A DNA stretch of 64,000 nucleotides from Sipunculus nudus (lineage: Eukaryota > Annelida > Sipuncula > Golfingiida > Sipunculidae). The notes beneath the pieces were generated by a model, which was not told where the DNA came from, ran no database searches, and saw only the letters and a program-made list of their open reading frames with translations. Both the position numbers and the translations under genes were made by a program. Where the stretch lies: positions 9,414,839 through 9,478,838 of the forward strand of contig CM049316.1 of assembly GCA_026874595.1 (NCBI GenBank). The letters run 5' to 3'. This document shows positions 35,465 to 61,096 of this stretch, piece after piece. The number at the start of each line of letters is the position of its first letter. The first letter of the stretch is position 1.

Positions 35465-35665
35465 ATGAAAGCTGCTGTATATCTCTTAGCCGCCGTCTTT
35501 CTTGTGGCGTTGCTGCTCGTTGACGAGGGACGCAGCTGGCGCGTTCGTATGTACCGCCCTAACAGGTGGTTGTGGTGCCCTCGCTACTGTCCGCGCGTGT
35601 GTTCCGGCCAGAGCTACTGTGGCTCTCTCTGTAGGAGACTGTGCAAGAGAGAGATCCGTTTACAA
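35465..35665 (+). CDS. Copy 1 exon 1: signal peptide and six-Cys domain
   Basis: 67 codons ending at CAA|GTGAGT, phase 0. Core WCPRYCPRVCSGQSYCGSLC then RRLCKREIRLQ. Shorter than copies 2 and 3 between signal and core. Confidence 0.85.
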
Positions 35666-37680
35666 GTGAGTTCTTCACCAAGGTCATCGACTGACAAACA
35701 TTTACGTCCCATTCCAAATAAACACAAAACGACATATTATGATTATTCCTGGTGTTTACAGCCGACCAGTAGCGTCTCCGTCACCCTTCCGCCAGAGGTC
35801 ATTAATTTCTTCTCGAAACAAATCCACCAGTTAGGAACTGTGGGACGGCCGGACTGCTTGTCTCAACTGTCAAACTTTAAAATCAAAATTTGTTACATTT
35901 CAAGGTAATTTTTTACATACTCAGGTTAAGAATTAGATAAGTCAGCATTAAAAAAAGAGGAGGCGGTTACCTCCACACAAAAAAAACTACGTAAATGTAC
36001 ATCTGCAGAATTCCATTCGGGCATAACACACTTTCTCTCATTTTATATCCTAGCGTCAACCAGGCCCGGTGACGACAACTCATTTGGTGGGTCATACCAC
36101 CCAGGAACCCCCGAAAGGCGCAGTCGTTTTTGAGGGAAACACGGCCGTGGTGCACGACCTTCCCTTTCTTTCCCAAACGGGAAATATTCAACTGCCTCGG
36201 CTGAGATCCGTACTCACGATCTCCCGGCTTTGTATTCTGTGCGTCACCTCTGAGCCACAGAAACCGGTCTTCTGTTTATATTTCACATGCGTGTGATTAC
36301 AAAAAAAAATTGTTATTGCATGAAGTCCTCGAGCACAAAAACACCCATGCTTATCTAATATGTCTTGAAACAATTATAATCCAACATATTAGAACGAACT
36401 ACATTGTCACCACATTTTTACCTACACCGCCGATTTATGTAGAAGACGCGGTGCATTGTGGGGTCAGACTTTGACGCCCATAAACCCTAAACAGCAGAGT
36501 CGTGCTTTTGGGAGTCGTGCAGTGTCAGCGTGTCTCCGTATATACCCGGGGCAGATACGGTTTGTTAAATGACTCGCATCAGGGACATAACTGATAAACG
36601 GTTTCCTAGGTTTCCAGGGCTGGAAACAACAAACTACAGGAATATCTCCTGTTTCAATATCCAATGCACTATTCACTCAGAAATTTAATATTAATACTGA
36701 AAATTAATTCAGCAGTTTAATATTTATGAATCTTCAAAAATTTGCGTTTTTTGTTTTTATGAGATTAAGAGACTGCCTATTATAAAAATCCCAAATACCA
36801 ACTTCGTGTGACATATATTTGGAAACAAGAACACAACAAGTCACTTTAAACTCGGGATAACTGTATAACTGGGCACCTAATACATTTTATAATACCCTTA
36901 TATAACAACTTTTCATCTTAAGCCTGCTACCCGCTATTTATAGAGTATTTACAGAATTGTCCCTAAATATTAGGACAACCGTCTTTCATATCACAAAGGC
37001 GCGCCTGGTATGAAATACAATAGTTACTTCGATCATTTTCAGGATAATGAGCCATTCCCGTCAGAGTTTGAGGAATATGACACTGACAAGGATGGTCACA
37101 TCAGCCCGGGAGAATTCACTAAACCCATCCGTGACGGTTTCGAGGACACTAACCTGGTCTCTGATCTCGTTGACAAGCATGGTAAATATGATACTGAACG
37201 TGTGTTTACACCATATCCATGCTCCTCCCGGAATCGACCTTCTAAAACTCTTTCTTTTGTCGGAAATTTTTAAGGATTAATGAGCATATTCTATATTAAA
37301 ATATGGGTCGACAGGTTTGTGAGGGGAGTTTTTTTTAGCTTCCTGCAAGTACAAACCATAGACCAGATTCCCTTTCCCCAGTTTTTTCTTCTTTGCGTTT
37401 GCACTGTATTTCCAATGTAGTAATTAAAAAAAATCTTTTGGTCAGAGTAATAGTCTTACGTGAGAAATGCGAACCTAATATTATTTATTTTACCTTGACT
37501 CTAAAGGTATTCCTATGTAATCACTTAGTAGCGGGCTCAGTCACTTACTTAAGAAAATAAGTTTAATTTACAAAAAAAAAACATAAATCAATATAGATAA
37601 TGTATATAATTTCAGCCGAAGAACAACAGGACCAAGAAGAGTTTGATGACGCCGCATTCATAAAGATGACAGACGAATGA
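35465..37680 (+). CDS. Secreted Cys-rich/EF-hand protein, copy 1 (mytimycin-like architecture)
   Basis: Three coding exons (35,465-35,665; 37,043-37,181; 37,616-37,680) give 134 residues. Residues 1-~24 are a signal peptide (MKAAVYLLAAVFLVALLLVD). Residues ~25-67 are a basic domain with cysteines 38, 42, 46, 52, 56 and 60. Residues 68-134 are an acidic tail with EF-hand loop 1 DTDKDGHISPGE (canonical) and a degenerate second loop (H, E, E at positions 3, 5, 6 and Q at 8). The layout recalls mussel mytimycin precursors, in which an antifungal Cys-rich peptide precedes an EF-hand extension. The six-Cys core differs from the 12-Cys mytimycin core, so an antimicrobial role is inference only. The start is the ATG after the conserved acceptor; a longer in-frame ATG at 35,429 lies in the intron. 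A donor follows the stop by 12 bases. Confidence 0.82.
36064..36262 (-). mobile_element. tRNA-derived SINE in intron 1 of copy 1
   Basis: Minus strand GTGGCTCAGAGGTGACGC (A-box region, from 36,256) then GCCGGGAGATCGTGAGTACG and GATCTCAGCCGAGG (B-box region) follow the tRNA head of mollusc SINEs, then a ~130-base body ending near GGTGGTATGACCCACC. Not a functional tRNA. Confidence 0.5.
37043..37181 (+). CDS. Copy 1 exon 2: EF-hand 1
   Basis: Acceptor ATTTTCAG, donor G|GTAAAT, 139 bases as in all copies. Encodes FPSEFEEYDTDKDGHISPGE and ends at the first residues of the second loop (LVDKH). Confidence 0.87.
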
Positions 37681-37692
37681 GTATCGTTGTAG
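37616..37692 (+). CDS. Copy 1 exon 3: end of EF-hand 2, stop, 3' UTR donor
   Basis: Coding to TGA at 37,678-37,680 (EEFDDAAFIKMTDE). The exon then continues 12 bases to a consensus donor TGTAG|GTGAGT at 37,693, so a 3' UTR intron is likely. Confidence 0.75.
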
Positions 37693-37960
37693 GTGAGTTA
37701 CTTAGGTCATAGCGGTAAAAATATAGATTTCAAATAATATGCCCCTTTGTTTAGAAAAATACTCACCTGCGTTACATGTGTCACAGGTAGACGCATACTC
37801 TTCACACGTAACTTTTAACTGTATATATATTGGTTTAATCAACATATAATTCAGTAAAACATTTTGTCGTTCTGTTGAATTTATGTTCCCTGGCGGTGTT
37901 AACATTCATGTATACATGCCGACGTCACCTCATATAATGCTGTCTTCTATGATTTTGCAG

Positions 37961-38140
37961 GATCTACTCGGCATGTTATCGGAAGGAGACAAGATGGACT
38001 CCATACTCTTTGTGTTCCTGACAGGGGTCTTCTGTATTTGTGTAACCAACAAACTCTTCGATTTCCCGAAATGAAAATTTCCCATGCCAAATATAACCAA
38101 CAGAAATCATTTGTCCATGAAACATGCTTTATATATTGAT
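37961..38140 (+). other. Candidate 3' UTR (or alternative terminal) exon of copy 1
   Basis: Follows a good acceptor (ATTTTGCAG). If spliced to exon 3 it is non-coding. If exon 3 is skipped, exon 2 joins it in phase and a frame of about 59 codons stays open to TGA at 38,137. A relic of the same segment lies at 44,310. The true 3' end is unknown; AATAAA occurs at 38,534 beyond a TA tract. Confidence 0.45.
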
Positions 38141-38204
38141 AAACCTGTGGATCTATTTTGCGGTGTAATATCAGTGACGCGGTACTGTATATATAAACAG
38201 AAAC

Positions 38205-38207
<3 letters not shown>

Positions 38208-38263
<56 letters not shown>
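38208..38263 (+). repeat. (TA)n microsatellite
   Basis: About 27 TA units, at the same relative position as the tract at 57,352 in the duplicate block. Confidence 0.95.
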
Positions 38264-38264
<1 letters not shown>

Positions 38265-39325
38265 CTTTCGTTTCGCCATGCAGTCTGATTTATTCTCAGT
38301 ATGGCCACGGACACACAAAATATTTACGGAACCGCTGTTCTTATTTTTCAGGGATCAATATGTGAAGAGCAACAAATCTTCTGTATTTATGCATGTATTA
38401 AAATACATATTACATTCATGAAGTTAAACTGACAATGGTTTAATTTTGTGTTATTCGTAATTACAAATCATTTTAAGAATTCTCACATATTTTTCAGACA
38501 TGATTTTTAAACCCTTTGCATCTGTTCATACCAAATAAAATTCCACAAGTGATAGTTAGAGTACTTTAATAGAATACGCCCCTTTAACAGGTAGTTATAA
38601 CTTGTGGACAAGGTCTTTCTGATTTTGTCCTTATCAGGGCGCGGTTAACATAGTGTTATATGAAAAGAAACACGAAACAAGTTCTTCAATACTCCTTTCA
38701 GCCAAAGGGCTTAGGTGGACTGGTTACCATAATGGTGAAGAAGAGATTCCTGTGATTTAACACTGATATGAAGGAACAGGTATACGTGCATTAACGTAAG
38801 ACATAAAACAAGTATACATTGCCCTTTTTTATTAGAAAATAGAAGGAAAACAGCCACTCACATCTGTTGGATGATTCTGACTGTTGTAACGCATATCATA
38901 TGTACAACATACAACAAACACTTATTTGCGTATTAATGTTAACGAAGTCCCCTCTCATGATAATGATAAACTGATTATGATCATCTTATAGTCAGATATA
39001 AACTGGGAGTATCTATGTTTTATTTTTCATCTAATTTTATACCTGATTATTTGTTACTCAAAACACAAAGACTGAAAAAATAATACATTATCGTTAAATG
39101 GCCATGTGAATAAATTAATATGCTAGATTTTGCAATTATAAGTACAAGCACCTAGAAGAAAACTTTGTCAACCGTATGCGGATCGTTGTACCAGCAGAAC
39201 AAACATGCATACTGTGAATACAGTCACAGAAAGATCTGCAGTAGCGTCCACTTCGTGTCACAGTGGTGTGTCAGTGTGTTTGTGCATTTAAAAACGTCAC
39301 TGGACTGGCTCAATTAATTGAAACA

Positions 39326-39331
39326 TTTATT
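39326..39331 (-). terminator. Candidate poly(A) signal of copy 2
   Basis: AATAAA on the minus strand inside CTCAATAAATGTTTC, about 350 bases past the stop. The same signal is at 58,708-58,713 for copy 3, while the pseudogene block has ATTAAA there. Confidence 0.5.
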
Positions 39332-39680
39332 GAGTGTTTTGTCATTGTCCTAGAGAAATGGTGCATTCCTGGATATTATAGAATTTATTGATAAACATAC
39401 ATCCGGTACAAGAATCTAAACATGAAGTGTAGATTCAGAAAAGATTATAAAATTAATATATGCTCACTCGATTACACACAAAAAGGGGACTAGAATATAA
39501 CAGAACGTTATCTTTTTTTTCAAGTATATTCGGTGCGTTTCAACTAATGGACGATTGCCTAATAAGTAAATAAAAACGGTAAAGCTTTCAAGGAATATAT
39601 GGAGAACTGGAGAGTATTAAAAATGGACGATTTAACGGGTTCATGTTATCTAATAAGCAGCTCACATGCACACGTTTTGT

Positions 39681-39745
39681 TTATTCGTCTTTCGTCTTTA
39701 TGAATGGAGCGGCATCAAACTCTTTCTGGTCCAGCTGTCCATCAT
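39681..39745 (-). CDS. Copy 2 exon 3: EF-hand 2 end and stop
   Basis: After ATTTCAG. Encodes DDGQLDQKEFDAAPFIKTKD, then E and TAA. The stop overlaps an AATAAA hexamer, too early to be the likely polyadenylation signal. Confidence 0.86.
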
Positions 39746-39944
39746 CTGAAATTATAAACATTGCATTCACAGTATATCTATATTAAAACCTCGTCGATTT
39801 GAACTTTCACATATCGAACATGCAGGCCTACCCCTTTACGTAAAAGTCAAAGATGTATTCCCACTCCAGTGAATTAATTCACTGCCAAGTACAACATGCA
39901 TATGTGGAATCTAGGATTTGGAAATATGGAATCTAGGATACAAG

Positions 39945-39999
<55 letters not shown>

Positions 40000-42453
40000 T
40001 AGATAAAGATAAAGTGTGACGCCTTTTAGATGGATTTTTTAACGTATACGTTGAACTTTTTAACTTCTTTCTCTGTTCTTTTATTTTTGAATCTTATTAT
40101 TCTCTCTTGTCTATTCGAAAGATTTTAAATCGCTAAGTATTTTTAATGTTTAATCAGTTCATACTGCATAATTTTCGTCATTGTTTAATTTGTATTTTGA
40201 AAATCATCTCCATATGGTTCATATTAATCATTATATGAGGAATGTACATTTTACGTACTTTTCAACACTCCTGGAGTAAAAAGAGTGTTATATAAATGTA
40301 GTAAAATTATAATAATTAACAACTTCGCCTCCGTTATGACCATTTTGCGGGGTATCTGAAGTACGATGCAATACGTGAACAATACTGGTATAATTACCGT
40401 CCTGGTCGACGAGATCAAAGATCGGGTCACTGTGTTCAATGTTTGAGCTGATGTGTTTGGTGAATTCTCCCGGGCTGATGTGGCCGTCCTTGTCGTTATC
40501 ATATTCCTGGAATTTAGACGGGAAAGACTCCACATCCTGAAAATGAACACAACGACAGTTATATTTTATCTTAGATAGAGCAGAGTCTTCACTATATTTG
40601 CATCTGTTGTATACAATATTGAGTATACTTGCACACAACGCAGGGTTCTGTCGATGACCAAAACACAGAGAAAATTCGCCGGCCCACCATAGGGCTAACT
40701 GGGGTTATAGCACGATACGATCTGGTACTCTTAGAAAGGAAATTAAATAAAAATATTTCCTATGGTTTTAGTAAACCAATGTTCACATAATGCTTTATGT
40801 CGAAAGGCCTGTAATAAAAAATAACCATTCTGGGAAGCATGAAGCACCTGTAACATCAGCAACTGAGAATTGTCCTGAGAGAATTGAAGCATTTACAGCC
40901 CCGTAGACATCTTGCATTTGGTGGCAGTCCTGTATAAGGCTTTAGGCCTGTGTACTATTATGTTCATATTTTAACATTCTTGGTGCAAAATAGGGCTGAG
41001 AACAGAACAGTAATGTTTTCCAGTGGTCAAAAAAATACACATAGATGTACTGAACATTAATCAATGGATATATGTTAAATCTCACAGCTGTGTATGGAGT
41101 GTTATGATCACAGTTAACTGCAGGTGCAATCTATGGACTCCACAATGCGTCAGTCATTGAAAAAAAGCAGTTGAGAAGTTCATTCTTATGGGCTACGCCC
41201 CGTGTAATTGGCCACAGAGCTTCCCAAAGGAGTGGCAGTTGGTGCGTTTCGGTTTAATCAAAGCTTGATATAATTTCCAAATTTGAACAGATCTTTCAGC
41301 CATTATGTGACTAAAACTAATTTGCTGTGTTTATTTTTATTCCATTCCTGGGAGAAATCCTACACTATTGCCAATCAGCAATGTTGTTACAGCCAAAAAC
41401 ATTTTAAAAGTGCTGGAACTGTTGAAAATATGTCATGCTTTAACGATCTCAGGTGGTCAATAACTTTAAAAATGCCATTTCAATAGGCTGCAGTTAATTA
41501 TTTTGATTGACCAAGTCTAATGAATACTCAATTTGTACCTTTTTTCTGATAGAACATTTACAAGAATGTATGAATATAAAATGAAAAAAGAGGGCAGACA
41601 AGGTAAACCTGGTCAGTGTTTGGATATAAATCACGGTTTTTGATATAAGTAGAAGCCTGTTGTCAACAAACTAGCCTACAAAAAAAGGGGGGAGGGGGCT
41701 CAATACTCTGGCCTTGGTAAACAAGTGGGCGTGCTAGATATGCTAGAAGACTTTATACACAACTCTCGCATAAAGTCGTATATTGGGAAGAAAATTATGA
41801 GATCCGGCACTACTTTTCGGTATTAATTATTTTAAGAAGTGTATATATATTTTTTCTATTTGCCAGATTTTTAAGTTATGAAAAGGAGGGCCGCGCAACT
41901 ATATATAGGCCCTGGGTACAGCCATCTTTTTATTTACACTCATTACACCTATAGGCCATCTATATAAGACATTCAGTAATTAATATCATTCATTAACATA
42001 ATTTTTCTATCAATTCGCAAAAGATCACAGCATTAGCTTGTATTAACCATCAGTCGGCCACGCAAACAGTCTCATACCCTCCCCCCCCCCCCAAGCTCAG
42101 GGCAATTGGAGAAACCCACTGGGGCCTGATGGACTGCTGGTCAAAACTCCGTGTTAATATAAGGTATTCTTTTTCGCGTTACTGGCCTGTACAGGCAAAA
42201 ATGCAAGAAGTAGTCATTTGTTTACCTGAAGACGGATCTCTCTCTTGCACAGTCTATGACAGAGCGAACGGCAATACCTCCCGCCGGAACACACGCGTGG
42301 GCAGTAGTGAGGACACAACAGAAACCTGTTGGGACGGTAAGCCTTCCGCCAGAAACCAATTCGGCGGCTCCTCTTTCCGAACCGGATCGTTTGTCCGTCA
42401 TCAACACACAGCGACGCCACAAGAAAAACGAAGAGAACAGCAACAGCTCTCAT
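39681..42453 (-). CDS. Secreted Cys-rich/EF-hand protein, copy 2
   Basis: Exons 42,453-42,226, 40,536-40,398 and 39,745-39,681 give 143 residues. The signal peptide is about residues 1-19 (MRAVAVLFVFLVASLCVDDG). A basic stretch (FGKRSRRIGFWRKAYRPNR) leads into the core with cysteines 47, 51, 55, 61, 65 and 69, spaced as in copy 1. The tail carries two canonical EF-hand loops, DNDKDGHISPGE and DQDDDGQLDQKE, the second split by the exon 2/3 junction. This is the only copy with both loops fully canonical. Convergent (tail-to-tail) with copy 1. Signal plus cationic core plus acidic calcium-binding tail suggests a stored or secreted defence peptide whose tail is removed, but no function is demonstrated here. 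Confidence 0.84.
39949..39997 (+). repeat. (TA)n microsatellite in intron 2 of copy 2
   Basis: About 24 TA units; copy 3 has a tract at the same place in its intron 2 (59,319). Confidence 0.95.
40398..40536 (-). CDS. Copy 2 exon 2: EF-hand 1
   Basis: 139 bases between CATTTTCAG and G|GTAATT. Encodes FPSKFQEYDNDKDGHISPGE and FDLVDQD, the start of loop 2. Confidence 0.88.
42226..42453 (-). CDS. Copy 2 exon 1
   Basis: 76 codons from ATG (42,453-42,451) to CTTCAG|GTAAAC. Contains LLCPHYCPRVCSGGRYCRSL and CHRLCKREIRLQ. The exon starts upstream at 42,461 after TGTTACAG. Confidence 0.87.
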
Positions 42454-42689
42454 GATGACTCCTGTAACACGTTATAGCTAGTACACACTGGCTAAACAGT
42501 ATACGGTCTTGTCTCTGACTTCCATCCCCCCCCCCACCCCCCACCCCCACCATGCATGTTGTTTTATACTTTTCCGAAATTTTGGTGCTAAGTGTCAGAG
42601 AAATTAAGGATTCAATGAGATACAGAATTTCTTGGGACGGGAGGTTTTCACTGAGAGTTACAAACGCGCAAACAAGCCTTTGAACTTAC

Positions 42690-42770
42690 GCTCTCTGAAT
42701 CATTATATGTCGAAATTTACAGAAATATGATAAACACACCTTTCAGAACTTCCTCAGCTGCCGTCGGGCC
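42690..42770 (-). promoter_or_regulatory. Candidate 5' UTR exon end of copy 2
   Basis: Minus-strand donor AGAGC|GTAAGT (GT at 42,689-42,688) aligns with AAAGT|GTAAGA of copy 3. The upstream boundary is unknown. The position matching copy 3's TATA box reads ATTCAAATC here. Confidence 0.35.
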
Positions 42771-43153
42771 TCAAGTTTTTGATTTGAATATCAACAGGCA
42801 GGTGATTCAATGAATTAAAACGGGTCTGTGTGATATAATCAGCAGTTCTTCCGATACGTTAGATAAATCCGAATGTGTTTTGGGGGCCGTGTAAAAAATT
42901 TAAAATGTTCTTGTCACTAGCAAATTATCAATCCTTGCCTAGTTCACGGAATTCCTGGTAGACTTCGCTCCTGGTGACTCCTGCTAGGCCACACTTGGCA
43001 TCTTTCCCGACGGTTCAAGACCAAAACAGATTTCTGGAATTTTATTTTATTTTATTTTTTTAGGGCCCCCCCCCCCGGCCCTGCTGGGAGATACAGATCT
43101 AATCTGATTACGGTGTATCCAACCGTGTGCAGATGTTAGGAGATGGTGGATCC

Positions 43154-43240
43154 GGGATCACGTGGTTCAGATCTCACGGGAACAAAGGCATGCTGTGTTA
43201 CTACTTAAGAGCATTCTGTATATTACGGACTATAAATAGC
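43154..43240. promoter_or_regulatory. Conserved CACGTG and CTATAAATAG block
   Basis: GGGATCACGTGGTTCAG (43,154-43,170) and CTATAAATAG (43,230-43,239) recur with the same spacing order at 62,432-62,511, and the CACGTG part recurs at 54,720. CACGTG is an E-box; CTATAAATAG fits both a TATA box and a MEF2 site. It lies ~700 bases upstream of copy 2 exon 1, so an enhancer role is possible. Confidence 0.4.
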
Positions 43241-44309: not shown

Positions 44310-44395
44310 CTATTCGGCATGTAATCGGAGGGTGACAGTGGTCTTCTGTATATTTATAATTAAAAAACTTAACGATTTCCAGAGATGAATTAATC
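44310..44395 (+). pseudogene. Relic of the copy 1 terminal exon
   Basis: TTTGTGTAG then GATCTATTCGGCATGTAATC, then GGTCTTCTGTAT, TTTCCAGAGATG match 37,952-38,075 with an internal deletion. No other exon of a plus-strand copy is found nearby, so this marks a lost copy. Confidence 0.6.
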
Positions 44396-46400: not shown

Positions 46401-46465
46401 TTATTCGTCTTCCTCCCTTATGAATGGAGCGGCATCAAACTCTTCCTGGTCCAGTTGTCAATCAT
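46401..46465 (-). pseudogene. Copy 4 exon 3 with TGA
   Basis: ATTTCAG acceptor. Codons DD, then TGA in place of Gly, then QLDQEEFDAAPFIREEDE-like frame and TAA. Confidence 0.82.
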
Positions 46466-48215: not shown

Positions 48216-49202
48216 TTTTGCCTTAATTTGCTGAGAGATAATACAATGATCCAGGGCTGTAGTGGTTTCTTTGCTAAATGCTTTCATCGAAATATATCAA
48301 CTTGCTTTCTTTTTATGTGGGAGATTTGTCAATTTTGCATCAGACCTGCTAATTCAATGACAATTTACAGTAAACATTTAATACTGTTGGAATATATTTT
48401 TCTGGGCCTATCTTTATCACATTGGCAGCAATACGTTTCGCGTACAAGGGACTTCAACGACATATGCACGTCTATTAAAAAAACGCATGTGTCTGGTAAC
48501 ATGCCCTAGACTATACCCACAACAGACTACACTGAATAAACAACGTGTTTCAAGATATCACATGAGCTTCAAATAATAAACGCATCTTTCATATAATTTC
48601 ACGGTAGAATGTTTCTTTATACAATCGTTAAATCTACGATATTTCCCAAGCAATGAAGCTGTCGGACCTTTTTTGTTTATCGGGCGAAACATTTCTCGCT
48701 TAAAGATTCGTCCACCTTGAATATGCCTCACGTCTCTTTCCAAAATTTGTTTGTTTTTTTGTGAGATTTCTGGAATAGAATAATTTTTCTTTCTATGTTG
48801 ATTTTACTGGGAGGGTGTTCCTGAAGAATTCTAGCAGAAGCAATCTGTATATCATATAAGTGAAACACATGAAAAAAAATCCTGCAAAAACCTTAGGATT
48901 AAAATATGCGTCGTTTAGTTCCTATCAGCTCATTACAAAAATATCCATCAGATAGAGCCGTGGTTTTCATCGGGTGCAGCTAGCATTTCTATTAATACCT
49001 CGTCGACTCGAACTTCCACATATCGAACAGACCTACTCCCTTACATAAAAGTCAAGTTGTATAGTTCCTATCCCAGTTAATAAACTCATTGCCTAGTCCA
49101 GCCTTCATGTGTGGAATCTAGGATATACACTTCAGTCTGGGCTGATGGCTGTTTGGGGTCCCCAAAAACGGTGTAATACGTTAAAAATGCTTCTATAATT
49201 AC

Positions 49203-49341
49203 CGTCCTGGTCGACGAGATCAAAGATCGGTTCACTGTGTTCAATGTTTGAGCTGATGAGTTTGGTGTATTCTCACGGGCTGATATGACCGTCCTTGTCG
49301 TTATCATATTCCTGGAACTTTGATGGGAAAGACTCAACATC
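49203..49341 (-). pseudogene. Copy 4 exon 2 with TGA
   Basis: Acceptor CATTTACAG and donor G|GTAATT are intact; YDNDKDGHISP then TGA at the Gly codon of loop position 11, after which the frame resumes as EYTKLISSN. Confidence 0.87.
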
Positions 49342-50211
49342 CTGTAAATGAACACAACAGCGCTTATATTTGACCGTAGATAGAGCAGAGTATTCAATAT
49401 ACATGTATTTTAATGCTTGCACCACATTGAGTATACATGTACACAGCAGAGGACTTTGTCGATGCCCCAGGCATATTAAAGGGATTGGATATACGACCGC
49501 TTAGTGAACATACATAACACGGCCAATCCTATCCGTTTTTCATTTCCATATAGAGCCCCAGGAGGCCTAGGGTCGGGATTGCAACTTCTTAGAAGCTCAG
49601 ACCATATGGCATTTAGGCAAATCGATGATTCCTGTCATTAAAAAAGGAGAGGGGTGACGTTTAGCGTCGATGGAGCTTAGTTGTTACAGCAACGCAAAGT
49701 TCCTTTGGCTAATGAGCTTACCAAATGACTGGCAGTATGGTGCGTTTCGGCTTAATTATAACGATTTTTGCAAACGTTGACAGATCTTTAATCAATTTTC
49801 GTGATTTAAACCTACTTTGAAATTACATTGTTTTATTTTATTTTATTTTCTGAGAAATCCTACAATATAGTCAATCAGCATTGGCGTTATAGCCTAAAAC
49901 GAAACTAGGTCAGTAACTTAATTCAAAATGCCACTTCCACTAGCCGCTGTTCATCATTTTAATTGACCAATACTAATGAATACTCAAGTTGTACTTTTTC
50001 CTTTTGAAATTTACCAGAATGTATGAATATGATAAAATGAATGTATAGAATGTAAAAAAATTAAAAGAAAAAAAGGGGGCTCAACACCATGTCCCTTGTA
50101 AATAAATGTGCCGGAAAAGCAGAAGACTCTATACATAACTCTTGCATAAAGAATTTTAGCGATGAAAATGATGAGATCCGTCACTATTTTTTTCTAGTTC
50201 CTAGATTTTAA

Positions 50212-51875
50212 GTAAACAAGGCCTACATGCCACAGCTATAAATAGTTCAAGACTGAACTTGGGTGCCAAATCTGATGCAGTGGGCTGTCTGCCAAAGCTA
50301 TAAATAGAATGCAGCTACTGTATTTAGTGAATTCTTGACCTATACCTAGCTTCACTGAGTGAACTCTTGACCTGTTGTCTATTGTGATACAGTTGGCAAT
50401 CTAGCAAAGCTATAAATAGACCCAGGCAGAGCTTTGGTCTGTTGCAAAATCTGAAATAATTAGGAAGATGCTAAGCTATTTATAGTTAAAGATACAATCT
50501 TGTTCTGTTTGTAAATCTGTTTACACACACTGAACTTTGGCTAAATTGCTTTTTTTTAAGCTGATGCAAGCATAAGATTTTTTAATAAAAATGTTTAGAA
50601 TAATAAAAGATGCAGTCCTTTCATTTTAAAGGTCTAATAATTTGCCAAAAATCATTTAAGTAAACTTGAACGAAGGCCACCTAATAATTATTTTTGTGCA
50701 GTGTTACTTAAATTGAAACAACATTTTTATGAAGGAGCCCTTAATTTGAAATAGGTTACTAATGGCCTCAAGACCTACTGAAACTTTCTATTACCAAAAA
50801 TCAATGAACCCAACTTATTCTTATACAATTAAAAAAACCTATCGTAGAATATTCTTTTAAACATTAAACAATTCAGCTTGACAGTTTCATCATAAAACAT
50901 TTTAAAGCTAAAAGTGGCTAAAATTAAAAGGTTTCTGAACGTAAAAACAGGTCGATATAGGTGGCGCCACAAAAACTGCAATTTCAAATATGAGTCACGT
51001 GACCAACATTTGCACAAAACTTAGTGATCCTAGATCCTATTGTTTCTTAGATGATTATGTTAGTATGCTCACTTGCCAAATGACTAATTTCAAATTCCTG
51101 TTAATCGGCCGGAACCATCAAACCAAAACCATTTGAACAATTTTGAGAGAGCTGGTCTCTGGGATCATTTCTGTGAAATATTGAACCATTTGGCCGATTT
51201 TTTTTTTTTTGTGAAGAAGTTTTTCAAAGTTTTTTTAAAACTTTTCCCCCATAAAATGTAAGCTAATACAGTTTGCGCCAAAAACACTCAACCCACATCA
51301 TTTGATATGTGACAGATTGTTGCATAAAATTTGGGGATGCAAGCTCCTGCTATTTCTGAGATATTATGGATTAATGTACTGATGACTGATGACCCCTGTA
51401 CAGAAAAGGTTGGTGCAGGTGGCGCCACCAATCCCTGAATTTCAAATATGACTCATGTGACCAACATTGGCATAAAATTTGGTGATGATAGCTCCAGCCG
51501 TTTCTGAGATAGTAATTTTTAGCAAGCTATTTAGGACAGATGAATAAGTTCAACTTCCTGTTACTCGTCCAAAATCACCGAACTTGAACCATTCGGACAA
51601 ACTTGAGAAAGAATGTTCCAGGGATCATTTTTTTTTTAACATTGGACAATTTGGTCGAACAGTTTCGGAGAAAAACATTTTAAACTTTTTCCCTATAAAA
51701 TCTACCAAAATGCAGTTAGTCAAAAATAAACAAAATCCGATAGAGTTATTTAGATGACTAATGATTTGCATAAAAATTGGTGATGCTAGCTCCTGTCGTT
51801 TTCGAGATAGTATGGGTTAACGCACAGACGACGGAAGACGCCACCGTACCGCATAAGCTCAGGTTCGCTTGTTAA
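50212..51875 (+). mobile_element. Insertion in intron 1 of copy 4 (AACAAG...CTTGTT element)
   Basis: Copies 2 and 3 read straight through ...CCAGATTTTTAAGT then the GCGC-rich segment. Copy 4 has 1.66 kb here, starting AAACAAGGCCTACATGCC and ending AGCTCAGGTTCGCTTGTT. Its right half has units with GGTGGCGCCAC palindromes (50,960 and 51,418) and AATATGASTCAYGTGACCAA blocks. Its left part has four CTATAAATAG motifs. No coding capacity. Confidence 0.6.
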
Positions 51876-51967
51876 AAAAAGTCGAGCGCGCCCTATAGAC
51901 CCTTGGTGCAGCTATCACATAACACCTAGGCCGACAATATAATATATTCAGTAATTAATATCTTTTA

Positions 51968-52014
51968 TTGTATCCGCCAAAACAGAGTTTTGCGGATACT
52001 ATGTTTTCAGCTGG

Positions 52015-52057
<43 letters not shown>

Positions 52058-53574
52058 GTAGGTGTCCGGAGAACTCCTCCGTAACCGCTGGGCGGAATTT
52101 TCCGAAACCCGGGATTATGTTCGGGTCACATGTGAACTGCTGCGCCCCGATTTTGTTTTGACCTCTGACCTTTCCTTTGCGCTCTGCGTCCGTTTGTGCG
52201 TCTGTTTCCACACATAAACCCACATATCTCGGGAACCGTTTGACCGATCAGGAAAATTTTTTTGCACAAATGTAGCCCTCGGAGAGCTTTATTACATACA
52301 CCAAAAATGGTGGCGCCACCTGCAACCATGTTTGCACAGTGTCCATCTGTTCGTCTGCCTTGGGTTAAAATCACTCATATCTCTGCAGTGACTTGACTAA
52401 TTCACCTGAAATTGGGCATGCGTAAACATCCTGGATAGCTTTTCTGATTTTATGACAGGTGGCGCCACCTACATTCACGTTTACGCTGCAGACATCCAAG
52501 CTCATATCTCGGGAACCGTTTGACCGATCAGGAAAATTCTTTTGCACAAATGTAGCCCTTGGACAGCTTTATAACATACACCAAAAATGGTGGCGCCACC
52601 TGCAACCATGTTTGCACAGTGTCCATCTGTTCGTCTGCCTTGGGTTAAAATCACTCATATCTCTGCAGTGACTTGACTAATTCACCTGAAATTGGGCATG
52701 CGTATACATCCTGGATAGCTTTTCTGATTTTATGACAGGTGGCGCCACCTACATTCACGTTTACGCTGCAGACATCAAAAGTCATATCTCAGGAACCGTT
52801 TGACCGATCAGGAAAATTCTTTTGCACAAATGTAGCCCTTGGAGAGCTTTATAACATACACCAAAAATGGTGGCGCTACCTGCAACCATGTTTGCACAGT
52901 GTCCATCTGTTTGTCTGCCTTGGGTTAAAATCACTCATATCTCTGCAGTGACTTGACTTATTCACCTGAAATTTAGCATGCGTATACATCCTGGATAGCT
53001 TTTCTGATTTTATGACAGGTGGCGCCACCTACATTCACGTTTACGCTGCAGACATCTAAGCTCATATCTCAGGAACCGTTTGACCGATCAGGAAAATTTT
53101 TTTGCACAAATGTAGCCCTTGGAGAGCTTTATAACATACACCGAAAATGGTGGCACCACCTGCAACCATGTTTGCACAGTGTCCATCTGTTCGTCTGCCT
53201 TGGATTAAAATCACTCATATTTCTGCAGTGGTTTGACTAATTCACCTGAAATTTGGCATGCTTATACATCCTGGATAGCTTTTCTGATTTTATGACAGGT
53301 GGCGCCACCTACAATCAAGTTTACGCTGCGACATCCAAGCTCATATCTAGGAAACCGTTTGACCGATTGGGCCAAAATTTTGCATGTGTATAAATCTCAC
53401 ATAGCTCTTTATCATACGCAAAACTGGTGGCGCCACCTGCAGCCATGTTTGCACAGCTCCCATCTGTTTGTCTGCCATGGGATAAAATATCCATGCTAAT
53501 ATGCAACACTTCACCCGTTCCACTCTGATTTAGGCGGATACAAGTAGTCGCTTGTCGACTACCCGTATTCTAGT
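51968..53574 (+). mobile_element. Tandem-repeat-bearing Helentron/HINE ('pearl'-like) element, copy 2
   Basis: Same termini as the 19.1-kb element (TTGTATCCGCCAAAACAGAG at left; GGCGGATAC, GTAGTCG hairpin, ATTCTAGT at right). A longer (CCG)n lies at 52,014-52,058, with about four 280-bp units. The paralogous stretch in copy 2 (AATATCATTCATTAACATAA, near 41,983-42,002) lacks it and serves as an empty site; the junction is consistent with insertion between two T bases. Confidence 0.72.
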
Positions 53575-55180
53575 TAACATTACTTTTCTTTCAATTCACA
53601 TAAGATGACAGTATCGGCTCTATCCACCAGGAGCCCGCCCCGCTAAGAGTCCGAATCATCGGATTCTTAAACATCACACTTATAAGCAGATACATGAAGG
53701 AACAAGCCTTTAATCTTGCACTTTGTGAATCCATATGTATGTGTAAAATCTACAAAAAATATGATTAACACGTCTTTGAGATCTTCCGCAGCTTCCTTCG
53801 GGTCTCTTCCACACTTTAAATGTACCAGATTTTGATTTGTCTGTCAACAGGAAGGTGATTCGTTCGAGAAAAAAGGGGCTGTGTGATATAATCATCAGTT
53901 CCATCTGATACGTCAGATAAATCATTTGCTTTAGGGGCGGTGTAGAAAATTAATTTATAATTGTCACGTAGCATAAAACCCATTCTTGCGCAGTTAACGT
54001 AGTTCAAGAAGGATTCCATAGTAATAGCCCCATCGGGAAATAAAATTTTAAATTTCTCACGATTTAAAGGAGAATTTGGGAATGGCCCCTCTTAGGACAC
54101 ACTTGGCATCGTTCTCAAAGCGTACCTAAAGAGCAATTGCATAAAAATGATAAAGTGTAGCAATCATCAATTTAAATATATATTTTTTAAATTCATTTGG
54201 ATAAAAACCTAAATCACCTGACAAAGATAAATTAACGAGAAAAATGCATTTTTTTTAAAGTCCTTGATGATTATAGAATCATCGAATCTTTTTTTTTTCC
54301 AAACATTTCAACCTTAAAGACCATCAGTATATTTTTTATTACTGCTTGGATCATTATGGCATTCTTTGATTTGTGTTAACAGTGTAAAACAAGAGCGTAC
54401 ACAAGCGTTTATTTATATGTAATTTATCAATATTAGGTCAGATATTAAAAGGTCCGATAGTTATAATGATACGACGTTCATTCATCGAAATTATTACAAT
54501 CTAAATGGATTTCTTTATTCATAAAATACAGTGTCCACTTTAAGATCATGACGCTAACAAAATCATTTCAAGATCCATCTAAAATAGAAATAACATTACT
54601 TTTTTTCAACCTGTCCTCTCATATTTTTTGCGCACACCGACCCCCCTACAAAGGAGATCAAGATCTAGAATGTTCACGGTGAATCCTGCCGTGTACTGAT
54701 ATCAGGAGATGGCGGGTCAGGGATCACGTGGTTCAGACATCACCAGAACAAAGGCAAGCTTTGCAACTAAAGAGCAATCTCTTTATCACGAACATTAAAA
54801 AGCTTAAATAAAGCGATTCCATAGAAAATATATAGGATGACCTGATAAGTGATGATGCTTAAATTTGCAAACCGGAATGGGACGCGAGGGCATTCAGATG
54901 TATAAGTTAGATGTATAAATGATAGGAATATATGAAATATGAATTTAGGGTTTGTTAAAGGCATGCAAGGAAGCTGTTCCTGAAGAAAGAAACGGATATA
55001 TGCATACCTCGTTAGTAGGCCTATCCATCCTCCTCACATTGTGCGGTGATAGGCCTGTGACACACTTCGATTGAAATTTCTAAATAATGTGTTTGAGCGG
55101 CTAAATGATGTATTAAAGGAAAGGAAAATTGTTTTTTGAAGGGACTATAAATGATGTTTTTAAATTGGAAAATCACTTGA
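53575..55180. other. Upstream flank of copy 4, no gene
   Basis: Collinear with 61,280-62,700 and parts of 42,650-43,450. The minus-strand 5' UTR donor is changed to GCAAGAT (around 53,720). The CACGTG block is at 54,720-54,736. No open gene. Confidence 0.55.
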
Positions 55181-55248
55181 AGTGAGGAAACAGAGTTCAA
55201 TTATCTTAATGGAAATCTTGATGAAAGCCTGCGTGTCGGGGCCCTGTT

Positions 55249-57076
55249 TCTCCCTAGTTATGTCCTTGTTGACATTTTGTCACATCCCTGTGTTCATTCT
55301 TCTCACAGAAGGTCTCCCTAGTTATCGGCCGGGTTATGTCCTTGTTGACATTGTGTCACATCCCTGTGTTCATTCTTCTCACAGAAGGTCTCCCCAGTTA
55401 TCGACCGGGTTATGTCCTTGTTGACATTGTGTCACATCCCTGTGTTCATTCTTCTCACAGAAGGTCTCCCCAGTTATCGACCGGGTTATGTCCTTGTTGA
55501 CATTGTGTCACATCCCTTTGTTCCTTCTTCTCACAGAAGGTCTCCCCAGTTATCGGCCGGGTTATGTCCTTGTTGACATTTAGTCACACCCCTGTATTCA
55601 TTCTTCTCACAGAAGGTCTCCCTAGTTATCGACCGGGTTATGTCCTTGTTGACATTGTGTCACATCCCTCTGTTCCTTCTTCTCACAGAAGGTCTCCCCA
55701 GTTATCGGCCGGGTTATGTCCTTGTTGACATTGTGTCACATCCCTGTGTTCATTCTTCTCACAGAAGGTCTCCCCAGTTATCGGCCGGGTTATGTCCTTA
55801 TTGACATTGTGTCACATCCCTCTGTTCCTTCTTCTCACAGAAGGTCTCCCCAGTTATCAGCCGGGTTATGTCCTTGTTGACATTGTGTCACACCCCTGTG
55901 TTCATTCTTCTCACAGAAGGTCTCCCCAGTTATCGCCCGGGTTATGTCCTTGTTGACATTGTGTCACATCCCTGTGTTCATTCTTCTCACAGAAGGTCTC
56001 CCCAGTTATCGACCGGGTTATTTCCTTGTTGACATTTTGTCACACCCCTGTGTTCATTCTCCTCACAGAAAGTCTCCCCAGTTATCGACCGGGTTATGTC
56101 CTTGTTGACATTGTGTCACATCCCTCTGTTCCTTCTTCTCACAGAAGGTCTCCCCAGTTATCGGCCGGGTTAAGTCCTTGTTGACATTGTGTCACATCCC
56201 TCTGTTCATTCTTCTCACAGAAGGTCTCCCCAGTTATCGACCGGGTTATGTCCTTGTTGACATTGTGTCACATCCCTCTGTTCCTTCTTCTCACAGAAGG
56301 TCTCCCCAGTTATCGGCCGGGTTATGTCCTTGTTGACATTGTGTCACACCCCTGTGTTCATTCTTCTCACAGAAAGGTCTCCCCAGTTATCGGCCGGGTC
56401 ATGTCCTTGTTGACATTGTGTCACATCTCTGTGTTCATTCTTCTCACAGAAGGTCTCCCTAGTTATCGGCCGGGTTATGTCCTTGTTGACATTGTGTCAC
56501 ATCCCTGTGTTCATTCTTCTCACAGAAGGTCTCCCCAGTTATCGGCCGGGTTATGTCCTTGTTGACATTGTGACACTTCCCTGTGTTCATTCTTCTCACA
56601 GAAGGTCTCCCCAGTTATCGGCCGGGTTATGTCCTTGTTGACATTGTGCCACATCCCTCTGTTCATCCTTCTCACGTACAGAATGTCTCCCCAGTTATCG
56701 TCCGGGTTATGTCCTTGTTGACATTGTGTCACATCCCTGTGTTCATTCTTCTCACAGAAGGTCTACCCAGATATCGGCCGGGTTATGTCCTTGTTGATAT
56801 TGTGACACATCCCTGTGTTCATTCTCCTCACAGAAGGTCTCCCTAGTTATCGGCCGGGTTATGTCCTTGTTGACATTGTGACACACCCCTGTGTTCATTC
56901 TCCTCACAGAAGGTCTCCCTAGTTATCGGCTGGGTTATGTCTTGTTGACATTGTGACACATCCCTGTGTTCATTCTTCTCACAGTAGGTCTCCCCAGTTA
57001 TCGGCCGGGTTATGTCCTTGTTGACATTGTGTCCCCCCCCCCCCCCCCCCCCTTGTGCGTTCTTCTCACAGAAGGT
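55249..57076 (+). repeat. 76-bp minisatellite, ~24 units
   Basis: Unit: CCAGTTATCGGCCGGGTTAT, GTCCTTGTTGACATTGTG, TCACATCCCTGTGTTCATTC, TTCTCACAGAAGGTCTCC. Units are nearly identical, with a few point changes and one-base indels. As 76 is not a multiple of 3, the long open frames across it are artefacts. Every unit carries the acceptor-like motif TTCTTCTCACAG. A C run (57,032-57,052) interrupts the last unit. Confidence 0.93.
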
Positions 57077-57348
57077 CTATATCAATGAATGTCAAGAATA
57101 AAGTACCTGACATAATTTAATCGCACAGCACGCTTTCACGCCGAAACCGATCTATTTCGCCTGAGAAGTGTATATTTCCACAATCAAGTAAATGGAGCAA
57201 ATAAAGAGTTTGGATCGTCAACGACCATGCAAAACAGAACCAACAGAAATCATTTTTCCGTGAAACATGCTTTATATATTGATAAACCTGTGGATCTATT
57301 TTGCGGTGTAATATCAGTTACGCGGTACTGTATATATAAACAAAAACT

Positions 57349-57351
<3 letters not shown>

Positions 57352-57422
<71 letters not shown>
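57352..57422 (+). repeat. (TA)n microsatellite
   Basis: About 35 TA units, homologous in position to 38,208. Confidence 0.95.
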
Positions 57423-57426
<4 letters not shown>

Positions 57427-57684
57427 CTTCGTTTCGCCATGCACTCTGATTTATTCTCAGTATGGCCACGGACACAAAAAATATTTTCTGGAAGCGCTGT
57501 TCTTATTTTTTAGGGATCAATATGTGAAGAGCAACACATATTACATTCATGACAATAGTTTAATTTTGTGTTATTCGTAATTACAAATCATTTTAAGAAT
57601 TCCCACATATTTTTCAGACATGATTTTTAAACCATTTGCATCTGTTCATACCAAATAAAATTCCTCCAGTTATAATTAGACTGC

Positions 57685-57957
57685 TTTAATAGACAACCTT
57701 TGAGCAGGACAGATTTCCGGAAAAATCCTGTAACATGAGGATGTTGGTTCTTTATGTACTGAAGTTGAAAGGTCTGACTTACCACAAGATGTCCTTTTTA
57801 AATGTGGTTAGGTTATTTTGGCGGGCCCTAACAAGTTTTAAACACGCGGATATAAACAAACTTAACAGTCTGTAGCATTTGCATTTTTCGGCCTGTTTTT
57901 AAAGTTTAACGGTTATCTTTAGTTAAAAGACGTAGGATATATCTGAATAGGCCCCTT
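57685..57957 (+). mobile_element. Decayed copy of the TTAA MITE
   Basis: TTATTTTGGCGGGCCCTAAC, ATATAAACAAACTTAACAG, TTTTCGGCCTGTTTTTA and the end GAATAGGCCCCTTA align with the interior and right end of the 22.4-kb and 34.1-kb copies. Confidence 0.5.
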
Positions 57958-58707
57958 ATGGTCTTTCTGATTTTTCCCTTATCAGGGCGCTGGTAACAGA
58001 GTGTCATATAAAAAGAAACACAAACAGTTTTTCAACACTCCTTTCAGCAAGAGTTTAGCTCCTTAAGTGGTTTGACTGGTAACCATATCAGTGAAGAAGA
58101 GATTCCTATAATTCAATACTGATAAATGTTACGTTTGGATATGAAGGAACAGGTACGTGCATTAAGTTAAACATAAAACAAGTATAAATTGCCTTTATTT
58201 ACCAGAAAATAGCGGGAAAACAGCCAGACACATCTGAGGAATGTTTCTGTGAGTTGTAACGCATATCATACAACATGCAACAAACACTAATTTGCGCATT
58301 TACATTAATGAAGTCCTCTCTCATGATAATTGTAAACTGATTATGATCATCCTATGGTCAGATATAAAGTGGGAGTATCTATGTTGCATTTTCCATTCAA
58401 TTTTATACCTGATTATTTGTTTCTCAACACACAAAGACTAAAAATTACTACAATATCTGGCGATGCATCATTAAATGGCCATGTGAATAAATTAATTCGC
58501 TAGATTTTGCCAATTTAATTGCAAGCACCTACAAGAAAACTTTGTCAACCGTATGCGGATGGTTGCACCAGCAGAACAAACATGAATACTGTGATTACAG
58601 TCACAGAAAGATCTGCCTGATAAGTAGCGTCCACTTCGTGTCACAGTGGTGTGTCAGCGTGTCCGTGCATTTAAAACGTCACTGGACTGGCTCAATTCAT
58701 TGAAACA

Positions 58708-58713
58708 TTTATT
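58708..58713 (-). terminator. Candidate poly(A) signal of copy 3
   Basis: Minus-strand AATAAA about 370 bases after the stop, conserved with copy 2. Confidence 0.5.
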
Positions 58714-59081
58714 GAGTATTTAATCCGGCCCTTACTGTATATCGAATTTCCCAAGACCAGTCATTGTCGCTGAGAAATGGTTCATTCCTGGATATTATAG
58801 AATTTGTTGATAAACATACATCCAGTAGAAGGATCTCAACATGGATTGTAGAGTCTAAAAAGATAAGATAAATTTAAGCTCAATGAAGTACACACAAAAA
58901 GGGGCCTTGAATATTACTGCACGTCAACAAGTATTCGGTGCGTTTCAACTAATGGACGATTTCCTAATAATTAAATAAATACGGTAAAGCTGTTAAGGTA
59001 TATATGGAGAACTGAAGAGTATTAAAAATGGACGATTTAACGGGTACATTTTATCTTATGAGCAGCTCACATACGTGTTGT

Positions 59082-59146
59082 TTATTCGTCTTCCGTCTTT
59101 ATGAATTTGGCGGCATCAAACTTTTCCTGGTCCAGCCGTCCATCAT
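59082..59146 (-). CDS. Copy 3 exon 3: EF-hand 2 end and stop
   Basis: After ATTTCAG. Encodes DDGRLDQEKFDAAKFIKTED, then E and TAA. Confidence 0.86.
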
Positions 59147-59316
59147 CTGAAATTATAAACATTATTTTTATTAATACCTCGTCGACTTGAACATGTCGAA
59201 CAGGACTATTCCCATACGTAATAATCAAAGATGTATTCCCACTCAAATAAATAACCTCAGTTCCAAGTCCAAATGCATGTCTGGAATCTATGATATGAAT
59301 TTATATGAAGTGAATT

Positions 59317-59378
<62 letters not shown>

Positions 59379-61096
59379 CGTATACGTTTATCTTTTTAAC
59401 TTTTATTTCAGTTGTTTTACCTCTTAATTAGATTAAATCGCTTAGTATTTTTAATGTTTTATCAGTTCATACTGCATAAGATTTAGTTACTGTATAATTT
59501 GTATTTTAAAATCACTTATATATGGTTCATATTTATCATTATATGAAGAATGGACATTTTACGTACTTTTGAACAATCTTTGAGTGAAAAGAGTGCTATA
59601 TAAATATGATAAAATAATAATAATAAACAACTTCGCCTCCGTTAATGACCATTTGCGGGGTACCCGAAGTACGATGCAATACGTGAAATATACTGGTATA
59701 ATTACCGTCCTCGTCGACGGGATCAAAGATTGGGTCACTCTGTTCAATGTTTGAGCTGATGAGTTTGGTGTATTCTCCCGGGCTGATGTGGCCATCCTTG
59801 TCGTTATCATATTCCTGGGACTTAGACGGGAAAGACTCCACATCCTGAAAATGAACACAACAACGTTTATATTACTTAACACTTGTACCACATTAAGTAT
59901 ACATGTACACAGCAGAGGACTTTGTCGATGCCCCAGACACATCGACGGGAGAAGATTCATGGCACGGTCAATCCTATCCTTTTTTCCCTTCTGCAGCCCT
60001 AGTAGGCCTATGGTCGTGATTTTAGCCCCTGTTCAACATTGGCTAGCCTCTACCATATGGCATTTATAGGCAAGTCGATTAGCAGCTTGAGTCCTGTCGT
60101 AATAATGAGACGACGTTTAGTGGCCACAGTAACGCCCCCTGTCTTTAGGCATGCCGGAAGTGTTTAAAAAAAGTCATGCTTTAACGATGTCAGGAGGTCA
60201 ATAACTTAAATTCAAGATGCAATTTCAATAAGCTGCGGTTCATCATTTTAATTGACCGATACTAATGAATACTCTAGTTGTACTATTTCTGATCGAAAAT
60301 ATACCAGAATGTATGAATATAAAATAAAAAAAGAGAGCTTACCTGGTAAATCTGGTCAGTCGTTTGATATAAATCACGTTTTTCTTTTAATATAAGTAGA
60401 AGACTGCTGTCTACAAAGTTAGTCACATAAAAGGGGGGGGGGGGGGGAGATTGGGGCTCAACACCCTGGCCTTGGTAAACATATGTGCTAAAATGCTAGA
60501 AGATTTTATACATAATTCTCGCATAAAAATTAATTTTGGAGAAAATGACGAGATCCGGTATTGCTTTTCGGTGTGAATTATTTTAAGAAATGTGTTTTTT
60601 TTTCTATTTCCCAGATTTTTAAGTCGAGAAAAAGGGCGCCGCTCAACTCTCGGCCCTGGGTACAGCTATCTGTTTTAGCTTATATTAACCATTAGCCGGC
60701 CATGCAAACAGTCTCAAGCATACCCCCCCCCCAGCTCAGGACCATTGGAGAAACCAACTTAGGCCTAATGGACTGCTGGTCAAAACTCCGTGTTAATTTA
60801 AGATATTTTTTCACGTTACAGGCCTGTTCAGGCAAAAATGCAAGAAGTAGTCATTAGTTTACCTGAAGACGGATCCCTCTCTTGCACAGTCTATGACAGA
60901 AGAAAGGACAATACCTCCGGCCGGAACACACGCGAGGACAGTAGTGAGGGCACAACAGAAATTTGTTGGGACGGTAGACTCGCCAGTGAACATTTCGGCG
61001 GCGGCTCATCTTAAATTTTTTTAACCGGATCGTTTGTCCGTCATCAACAAACAGCGACGCCACAAGGAAAACGAAGAGAACAACAACAGCTCTCAT
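59082..61096 (-). CDS. Secreted Cys-rich/EF-hand protein, copy 3
   Basis: Exons 61,096-60,863, 59,844-59,706 and 59,146-59,082 give 145 residues. Signal peptide about residues 1-19 (MRAVVVLFVFLVASLFVDDG). Basic linker LKKFKMSRRRNVHWRVYRPN. Core cysteines 49, 53, 57, 63, 67 and 71 with the family spacing; PFF replaces RSL between cysteines 4 and 5. EF loop 1 is canonical (DNDKDGHISPGE). Loop 2 reads DEDDDGRLDQEK, so the bidentate Glu at position 12 is Lys, which should weaken calcium binding. It has the best candidate promoter of the cluster. No coding defect seen. Confidence 0.84.
59319..59375 (+). repeat. (TA)n microsatellite in intron 2 of copy 3
   Basis: About 28 TA units, at the same intronic site as in copy 2. 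Confidence 0.95.
59706..59844 (-). CDS. Copy 3 exon 2: EF-hand 1
   Basis: 139 bases between CATTTTCAG and G|GTAATT. Encodes FPSKSQEYDNDKDGHISPGE, then YTKLISSNIEQSDPIFDPVD. Confidence 0.88.
60863..61096 (-). CDS. Copy 3 exon 1
   Basis: 78 codons from ATG to CTTCAG|GTAAAC; exon begins at 61,104 after TGTTACAG. Core LLCPHYCPRVCSGRRYCPFF then CHRLCKRGIRLQ. Confidence 0.87.

Follow-up and report, generated by a model that had tools for sequence, protein, structure and literature searches.

The sipunculid worm Sipunculus nudus carries, within the 64,000-nucleotide stretch of contig CM049316.1 analyzed here (assembly GCA_026874595.1, positions 9,414,839 to 9,478,838 of the forward strand; hereafter, the window), three intact genes (g1, g2, and g4) in which a signal peptide, a basic segment, and a module of six cysteines are joined to an EF-hand tail. 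We read these genes, with a probability of roughly 60%, as secreted peptide precursors of a large and probably immune family, in which a cationic hairpin would be released at a Lys-Arg (KR) or Gly-Lys-Arg (GKR) site and the EF-hand tail would serve in masking, folding, or storage. The gene family appears to be new; text searches of the literature for the family's peptide strings found no paper, and no title or abstract start among the literature matches listed describes it.

A six-frame translation of the window contains three matches to the pattern C-x3-C-x3-C-x5-C-x3-C-x3-C, and a locus-versus-locus comparison places downstream of each core exon, on the same strand, an EF-hand exon with a CAG acceptor and then a last exon:

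35465..35665, plus strand: g1 exon 2, encoding the signal peptide, basic segment, six-cysteine module, KR, and ..IRLQ, with a phase-0 end
35576-35644, plus strand: six-cysteine module of g1, CPRYCPRVCSGQSYCGSLCRRLC, spacing 3-3-5-3-3
37043..37181, plus strand: g1 exon 3, EF-hand 1 (DTDKDGHISPGE) and the start of loop 2, with a phase-1 end
37616..37680, plus strand: g1 exon 4, EF-hand 2, degenerate, and the stop codon
42226..42453, minus strand: g2 exon 2, encoding the signal peptide, a basic segment that includes KRSRR, the six-cysteine module, and KR
42247-42315, minus strand: six-cysteine module of g2, a six-frame pattern match
40398..40536, minus strand: g2 exon 3, EF-hand 1, entered in phase 0 and left in phase 1
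39681..39745, minus strand: g2 exon 4, EF-hand 2 with the loop DQDDDGQLDQKE, and the stop codon
60863..61096, minus strand: g4 exon 2, encoding the signal peptide, basic segment, six-cysteine module, and KR
60884-60952, minus strand: six-cysteine module of g4, a six-frame pattern match
59706..59844, minus strand: g4 exon 3, EF-hand 1
59082..59146, minus strand: g4 exon 4, EF-hand 2 with Lys at loop position 12, and the stop codon

Exon 2 is open in all three genes, from a signal-like ATG at its start to ..IRLQ at a GT donor in phase 0, and the border between the EF-hand exon and the last exon falls in phase 1 within loop 2. A preliminary description of this locus had reported these fixed borders, and they hold in g1, g2, and g4; both borders of exon 3 are likewise alike in the paralogs where they were read (L031-L034, L059-L061, L082, and L083). 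The spliced products comprise 134 (g1), 143 (g2), and 145 (g4) amino acids and, with the six-frame scan, bear out the description of three intact genes that share a signal peptide (called by eye), a basic six-cysteine core, and an EF-hand tail. Lys-Arg immediately follows the sixth cysteine (Cys6) in each gene, and net charge runs from +11 to +17 in exon 2 past residue 22 and from −13 to −18 in the tail. The sequence upstream of the ATG in g2 and g4 (..ttacag gagtcatcATG) is compatible with a non-coding first exon. The tail had been described as a pair of EF-hands, which is fully true of g2, the only gene with a canonical loop 2 and the only one in which Pfam EF-hands exceed the curated cut-off (four models; EF-hand_1 scores 35.7 bits versus 25.4); it is not fully true of g1, in which loop 2 is degenerate (DKHAEEQQDQEE), or of g4, with its Lys at position 12, and the Pfam EF-hand scores of both genes all fall below the cut-off.

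The family extends well beyond the window. Exon-2 protein searches of the species' own genome (1.43 Gb, 153 contigs) returned 12, 27, and 41 rows, from which the four weakest (L035-L038), a simple repeat at C3:19657333, and the rows at C6:69112239 and C3:76042140 were removed. They place exon 2 at 48 positions, broken copies included, on contigs C3, C8, C10, and C11, with 37 of the 48 in a cluster at 22.13-23.02 Mb of C10 whose members combine very different payload segments with the same kind of EF-hand tail. A search with one EF-exon query gave 52 rows at E <= 0.01, and an EF match lies downstream on the same strand of 41 of the 48 exon-2 places, at 193-3402 bp measured hit to hit; a 42nd pairing is that of L030 on C3, whose degenerate tail was located by fetching its flank. 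This pairing is strong evidence, from the genome alone, that the cysteine exon and the EF exons form one gene, as had been proposed from the window, and because further chromosomes carry this pair of exons as well, the family is not a product of chance. Four inner cysteines placed randomly in a 23-mer would show the exact 3-3-n-3-3 spacing at a frequency of 0.000175.

Within the C10 cluster, two pairs of copies (C10:22850328/22877891 and 22865849/22893442) lie ~27.6 kb apart with identical scores, those of their EF matches included, which suggests a recent block duplication. Dense clusters of EF-hand-pair matches also occur at C1:107.83-108.06 Mb and C5:7.72-7.76 Mb, where the tail search gave no rows.

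We read 46 loci, namely 45 of the 48 places plus the simple repeat L056; the places outside this set are C10:22877891, 22893442, and 22499225. The 3-3-n-3-3 regular expression matched 41 of the 46 loci, with n = 4 in 24, n = 5 in 14, n = 3 in two, and n = 7 in one, and missed L043 (cut short), L046, L058, and L063 (which contain stops), and L056. As the expression itself fixes the outer spacings, these counts cannot prove that the outer spacings are invariant. The five-residue middle loop first taken as part of the pattern characterizes a subfamily and not the whole family, since 24 of the 41 matching exons have four residues there. Behind Cys6, a phase-0 GT[AG]A donor is present in 33 of the 41 exons and no in-frame GT[AG]A in the other eight; L034 has gcaagt at the aligned donor place.

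The position of the putative cleavage site varies. In 21 of the 32 matching C10 exons, Gly plus two basic residues stand between the signal peptide and the cysteine module (regular expression G[KR][KR]; RGRRFF in L031-L033 and FGKRS in L027 were not counted as amidation sites, and GRK in L076 is doubtful). Ahead of this site, the C10 copies have segments rich in Arg and Trp (L048, L052) or in Pro and Arg (L062, L064), short segments with a Cys loop (L054, L057), or just a handful of residues (L068, L073, L078). KR directly follows Cys6 in all four genes of subfamily A (g1, g2, g4, and L030), and GKR lies a few residues past Cys6 in L031-L034 and L041. A single branch (99/99) sets these nine copies apart in an unrooted tree of the signal peptide and module (38 rows, 45 columns), from which the site's own columns were left out and in which many forks are unresolved; copies lacking the site after Cys6 carried one label in this grouping, whether or not they had Gly and two basic residues before the module. 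The trees and the counts by column cover 38 of the 41 exons, the other three having no readable start. The cleavage site apparently changed sides of the cysteine module during evolution.

Very short segments between the signal peptide and GKR/GRR were observed in L068, L073, L077, L078, L080, and L081; among them, WISVNF (L068), WLTISF (L078), and WFNFVNI (L077) would give hormone-sized amidated peptides.

Further payloads were found by working back from the tails. Eleven EF matches stand without a listed cysteine exon, one of them being the window pseudogene g3, and upstream sequence was fetched for six of the other ten. A payload exon was found in five of the six (L082, L083, L084, L085, and L087), and the sixth, L086, had no payload exon in the 1.7 kb upstream of its EF match. 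On C2, L083 has a stand-alone module followed by GKR (GCNWGCWVVCYWGRCYVRCGVRCTW-GKR) between signal and tail, and L087 is similar; the payload spacing is 3-3-6-3-3 in L082 and 3-3-5-3-3 in L084, and L085 has a four-cysteine form, C-x3-C-x8-C-x3-C, with an Arg-rich arm. Judged on these exons, the tail resembles a fixed chassis, and the payload on it varies across the genome, from a segment ahead of the module with Gly and a dibasic site, through a basic segment plus cysteine module (window, C3, and C8), to the module alone (C2) and the four-cysteine form. The family is large and fast-changing, and its members encode small secreted peptides, probably defensive in role, carried on the same kind of calcium-binding tail. 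More tentatively, and with somewhat less conviction than the precursor reading itself, we suggest that one EF-hand chassis of two constant exons and about 50 payload exons, broken ones included, could make up a system of modular peptide delivery. Its payloads would range from linear segments rich in Arg, Pro, or Trp and short amidated peptides to hairpins with four or six cysteines, and relocation of the dibasic site to the other side of the cysteine module would have made a carrier hairpin part of the effector, or the reverse.

Masked cationic peptides usually have this arrangement of opposite charges on either side of a dibasic site. From this charge layout with its dibasic site, and from the same order of parts in the mussel peptide mytimycin (PMC8004829), we propose cleavage, amidation, and a storage role for the EF-hand tail. 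A proprotein convertase would cut at KR or GKR after the cysteine module, a carboxypeptidase would trim the end, and an amidating enzyme would act where Gly is present, so releasing a cationic six-cysteine peptide in which disulfide pairs 1-6, 2-5, and 3-4 would staple two short antiparallel arms, probably largely helical, in the manner of alpha-hairpinins and turgencins. The basic N-terminal arm may bind microbial surfaces. To judge by the charges, the acidic tail could mask the basic payload until cleavage, and it may also help the payload fold in the calcium-rich secretory pathway and aid granule packing.

The core had initially been credited with an undescribed fold, which is not supported because its spacing is identical to the published plant 6C alpha-hairpinin motif (PMC11591084). 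The module is probably a disulfide-stapled hairpin and, by analogy, its fold is probably not new. The nested pairing 1-6, 2-5, 3-4 put forward earlier is plausible: it agrees with the connectivity of turgencins (PMC7024374) and with the four-cysteine L085, a single case that gives the appearance of a joint loss (or a gain still to come) of C1 and C6 and that fits a 1-6 pair, since the apparent outer two cysteines are the ones missing. Proline follows Cys1 in 37 of 38 modules, at a position where a helix can start; the earlier objection that prolines after Cys1 and Cys2 disfavor a regular first helix keeps its force, as regards the proline after Cys2, for the window's subfamily and loses it for most of the family. 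With hits admitted up to E 10, Pfam matched none of the three core exons of the window, sequence searches of the PDB with the core gave nothing credible, and a PDB profile search built on 21 modules gave eight rows up to E 10, none credible and none of them the solved alpha-hairpinin 2NB2. For five paralog exons, Pfam gave just two rows, Conotoxin_I2 (E 0.22) and a beta-propeller (E 0.073), both short of the cut-off and attributed to chance.

Within the cysteine module, nonsynonymous divergence (dN) is below synonymous divergence (dS) in 11 of 14 close pairs (0.089 vs 0.367 for g2/g4). A number of observations weigh against the precursor reading. Six of the exon-2 places, L030 not counted, lack an EF match within 6 kb; of these, L046, L058, and L063 contain stops and L042, L051, and L073 are open. 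In most C10 exons, the cysteine module lies beyond the probable cut, is near neutral, and resembles a carrier. Calcium binding is not essential in every copy, given the degenerate second loop of g1 and g4 and the degenerate first loop of L030; the decayed loops of these three copies suggest that acidity outweighs calcium in some of them. The three remaining close pairs add no ratio (dS is 0 in two, and the third could not be computed), the dN/dS comparisons draw on few codons, and the g2/g4 tail, with dN 0.077 close to dS 0.116, is weakly constrained. As for the fold, a proline follows Cys2 in the window's subfamily, and an AlphaFold2 model of the core, made from three sequences only, is unreliable (mean predicted local distance difference test score, 57.7; predicted template modeling score, 0.31) and comprises two 3-residue strands and a helix at 41-53, in the second arm, with none in the first.

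The most probable of the alternatives, although we consider it unlikely, takes the cysteine module as a constant carrier that acts with the EF-hand pair in folding or sorting, the active product being the segment between the signal peptide and the dibasic site. The Gly and two basic residues ahead of the module in 21 of 32 C10 exons, some of them doubtful as in L076, point this way, as do the Arg/Trp-rich, Pro/Arg-rich, or very short segments before that site and the higher dN of the N-terminal segment than of the module in 10 of the 13 close pairs with a value. In the C3/C8 subfamily (L031-L033), however, the N-terminal segment is conserved, with zero amino-acid changes from signal to module in L032/L033 and L031/L033. 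The site behind Cys6 in the window copies, L030-L034, and L041, and the module standing alone between signal and GKR on C2 (L083, L087), further imply that, if these precursors are cleaved, the module must be in the released peptide.

It is somewhat less probable again that the products are signaling or venom-like peptides and not defensive ones. Short amidated N-termini such as the W...F/V/I segments before GKR/GRR in L068, L078, and L077 are hormone-like, and clustered genes with fast-changing segments would suit such a role, but many copies have basic payloads and the tandem cluster is large; the antimicrobial myticalins have a similar layout without EF-hands (PMC5577615, PMC12294457), and an EF-hand tail is found on the antifungal mytimycin (PMC8004829). 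We give little credence to an uncut, secreted two-domain protein in which calcium is sensed or sequestered by the EF-hands and anchorage to surfaces is provided by the basic domain, the purpose being to withhold metal or to control mineral. Of the 13 copies tabulated, 12 have a canonical EF loop 1, as this would lead one to expect. (In that tabulation, loop 2 is readable in seven copies and canonical in five, three of these with one unread residue.) Against it, KR adjoins Cys6 in subfamily A, GKR lies within a few residues of it in subfamily B, and loop 2 is decayed in g1 and g4. Least probable of all, and improbable outright, are intermolecular cross-links, in place of a monomeric hairpin, after the precedent of minicollagen cysteine-rich domains, CX3CX3CX3CX3CC, which are cross-linked via disulfide reshuffling (PMC4863159): two paralogs do have 3-3-3-3-3 spacing, but the modules read do not end in CC and vary in their middle loop, and the four-cysteine L085 fits nested pairing within one chain.

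The fourth member of the window cluster, g3, had been described as a pseudogene sharing the signal peptide and core. It retains both EF exons, each with one in-frame stop, plus intron remnants:

49203..49341, minus strand: g3 pseudogene exon 3, the EF exon
46401..46465, minus strand: g3 pseudogene exon 4, the second EF exon

Its signal and core exon is not recognizable, as only short matches at chance level came from tblastn across the window and from a sensitive blastn of 48501-57500, so that the shared signal peptide and core must be withdrawn from that description. No further credible family exon was found by tblastn in 244 kb comprising the window, the 80 kb before it, and the 100 kb after it. 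The window also contains a 76-bp tandem repeat of 23.3 copies at 55257-57033, a near-identical 280-bp unit in two separate arrays at 19288-20970 (6.0 copies) and 52223-53488 (4.5 copies), a 44-bp array of 23.3 copies at 15973-16987, and a 180-bp repeat of 2.0 copies at 9217-9581. At 2721-3008, on the plus strand, lies an exon similar to type I phosphodiesterases (Pfam E 9.7e-4, short of the cut-off) and reminiscent of a glycosylphosphatidylinositol (GPI) ethanolamine phosphate transferase. Scans of the window against Rfam and for tRNA genes gave no hits. Elsewhere in the genome, at least 141 C1q-domain matches were counted, often clustered (150 of 203 candidates scored), an abundance of the kind that would suit a bivalve without proving one. 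Genome searches for the hemocyanin, myticin, and big-defensin families were negative, a result of little weight because their controls likewise gave no signal; the C1q search, too, had no responding control.

Among known systems, the CRP-I knottins of mussels are likewise six-cysteine secreted peptides in gene clusters, and differ in their C-C-CC-C-C array and predicted knottin fold (PMC10138031); the window modules have no adjacent cysteines, and the regular expression excludes that array for the other copies. For CRP-I, minicollagen, and turgencin, the comparison was confined to cysteine spacing. In the plant pollen protein Ole e 6 (PDB 1ss3), all six cysteines align with the module at a spacing of 3-3-9-3-3, at an E of 0.48 that is not significant. 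The myticalins and modiocalins share with the family a conserved signal peptide, a hypervariable cationic segment, a dibasic site often with Gly, an acidic extension, and a multigene organization (PMC5577615, PMC12294457), a likeness that is strongest with the N-terminal part of many C10 copies. They are Cys-free, with a low-complexity extension and a phase-1 intron after the payload, whereas the S. nudus genes have a cysteine module, an EF-hand extension, and a phase-0 border.

Turgencins A and B of the ascidian Synoicum turgens are cationic six-cysteine peptides, paired 1-6/2-5/3-4 and amidated (PMC7024374). The S. nudus peptides resemble them in cysteine number and charge, in the C-terminal amide predicted by GKR in some paralogs, and, if our proposal for the core is right, in the pairing and a helix-loop-helix-like form; they differ in spacing, which is 3-4-8-2-3 or 3-4-7-2-3 in turgencins, by count on their published sequences, and 3-3-5-3-3 in the window, and the window genes have KR without Gly. 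The closest spacing is that of the plant 6C alpha-hairpinins, C-X3-C-X3-C-X4-20-C-X3-C-X3-C, for which Nigellin-1.1 (PDB 2NB2) is a solved helix-loop-helix example (PMC11591084). The three window cores and 39 of the 41 pattern-matching exons conform to this motif, two exons with n = 3 falling outside its range of 4-20, and the 4C form C-X3-C-Xn-C-X3-C occurs in both groups. The likeness is one of cysteine spacing, with no sequence similarity detected, and here the module belongs to an animal precursor with an EF-hand tail. The family supplies numerous natural versions of an animal peptide that has this plant spacing, a means to test for independent origin of the staple; it also offers an apparent case of a cleavage site switching sides in evolution.

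The nearest precursor is mytimycin, known only from the Mytilida, which comprises a signal peptide, a cationic cysteine-rich part, a dibasic site, and an acidic C-terminal EF-hand extension (PMC8004829). The S. nudus genes repeat these parts in the same order, are likewise multigene, and have an apparent counterpart of its non-coding exon 1. The core is of another type, as had been anticipated: mytimycin has 10 invariant and up to 6 accessory cysteines in place of the six of the window cores and the four or six of other modules. Payloads in S. nudus also include linear and short segments, and the tails are likened by layout, not by sequence. That one kind of tail goes with such varied payloads suggests for it a general task in folding, masking, or storage, not a function tied to any one peptide. 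The authors of the mytimycin work state the role of the EF-hand as unknown (PMC8004829), and a family of this size makes the role of the tail testable by its removal or exchange.

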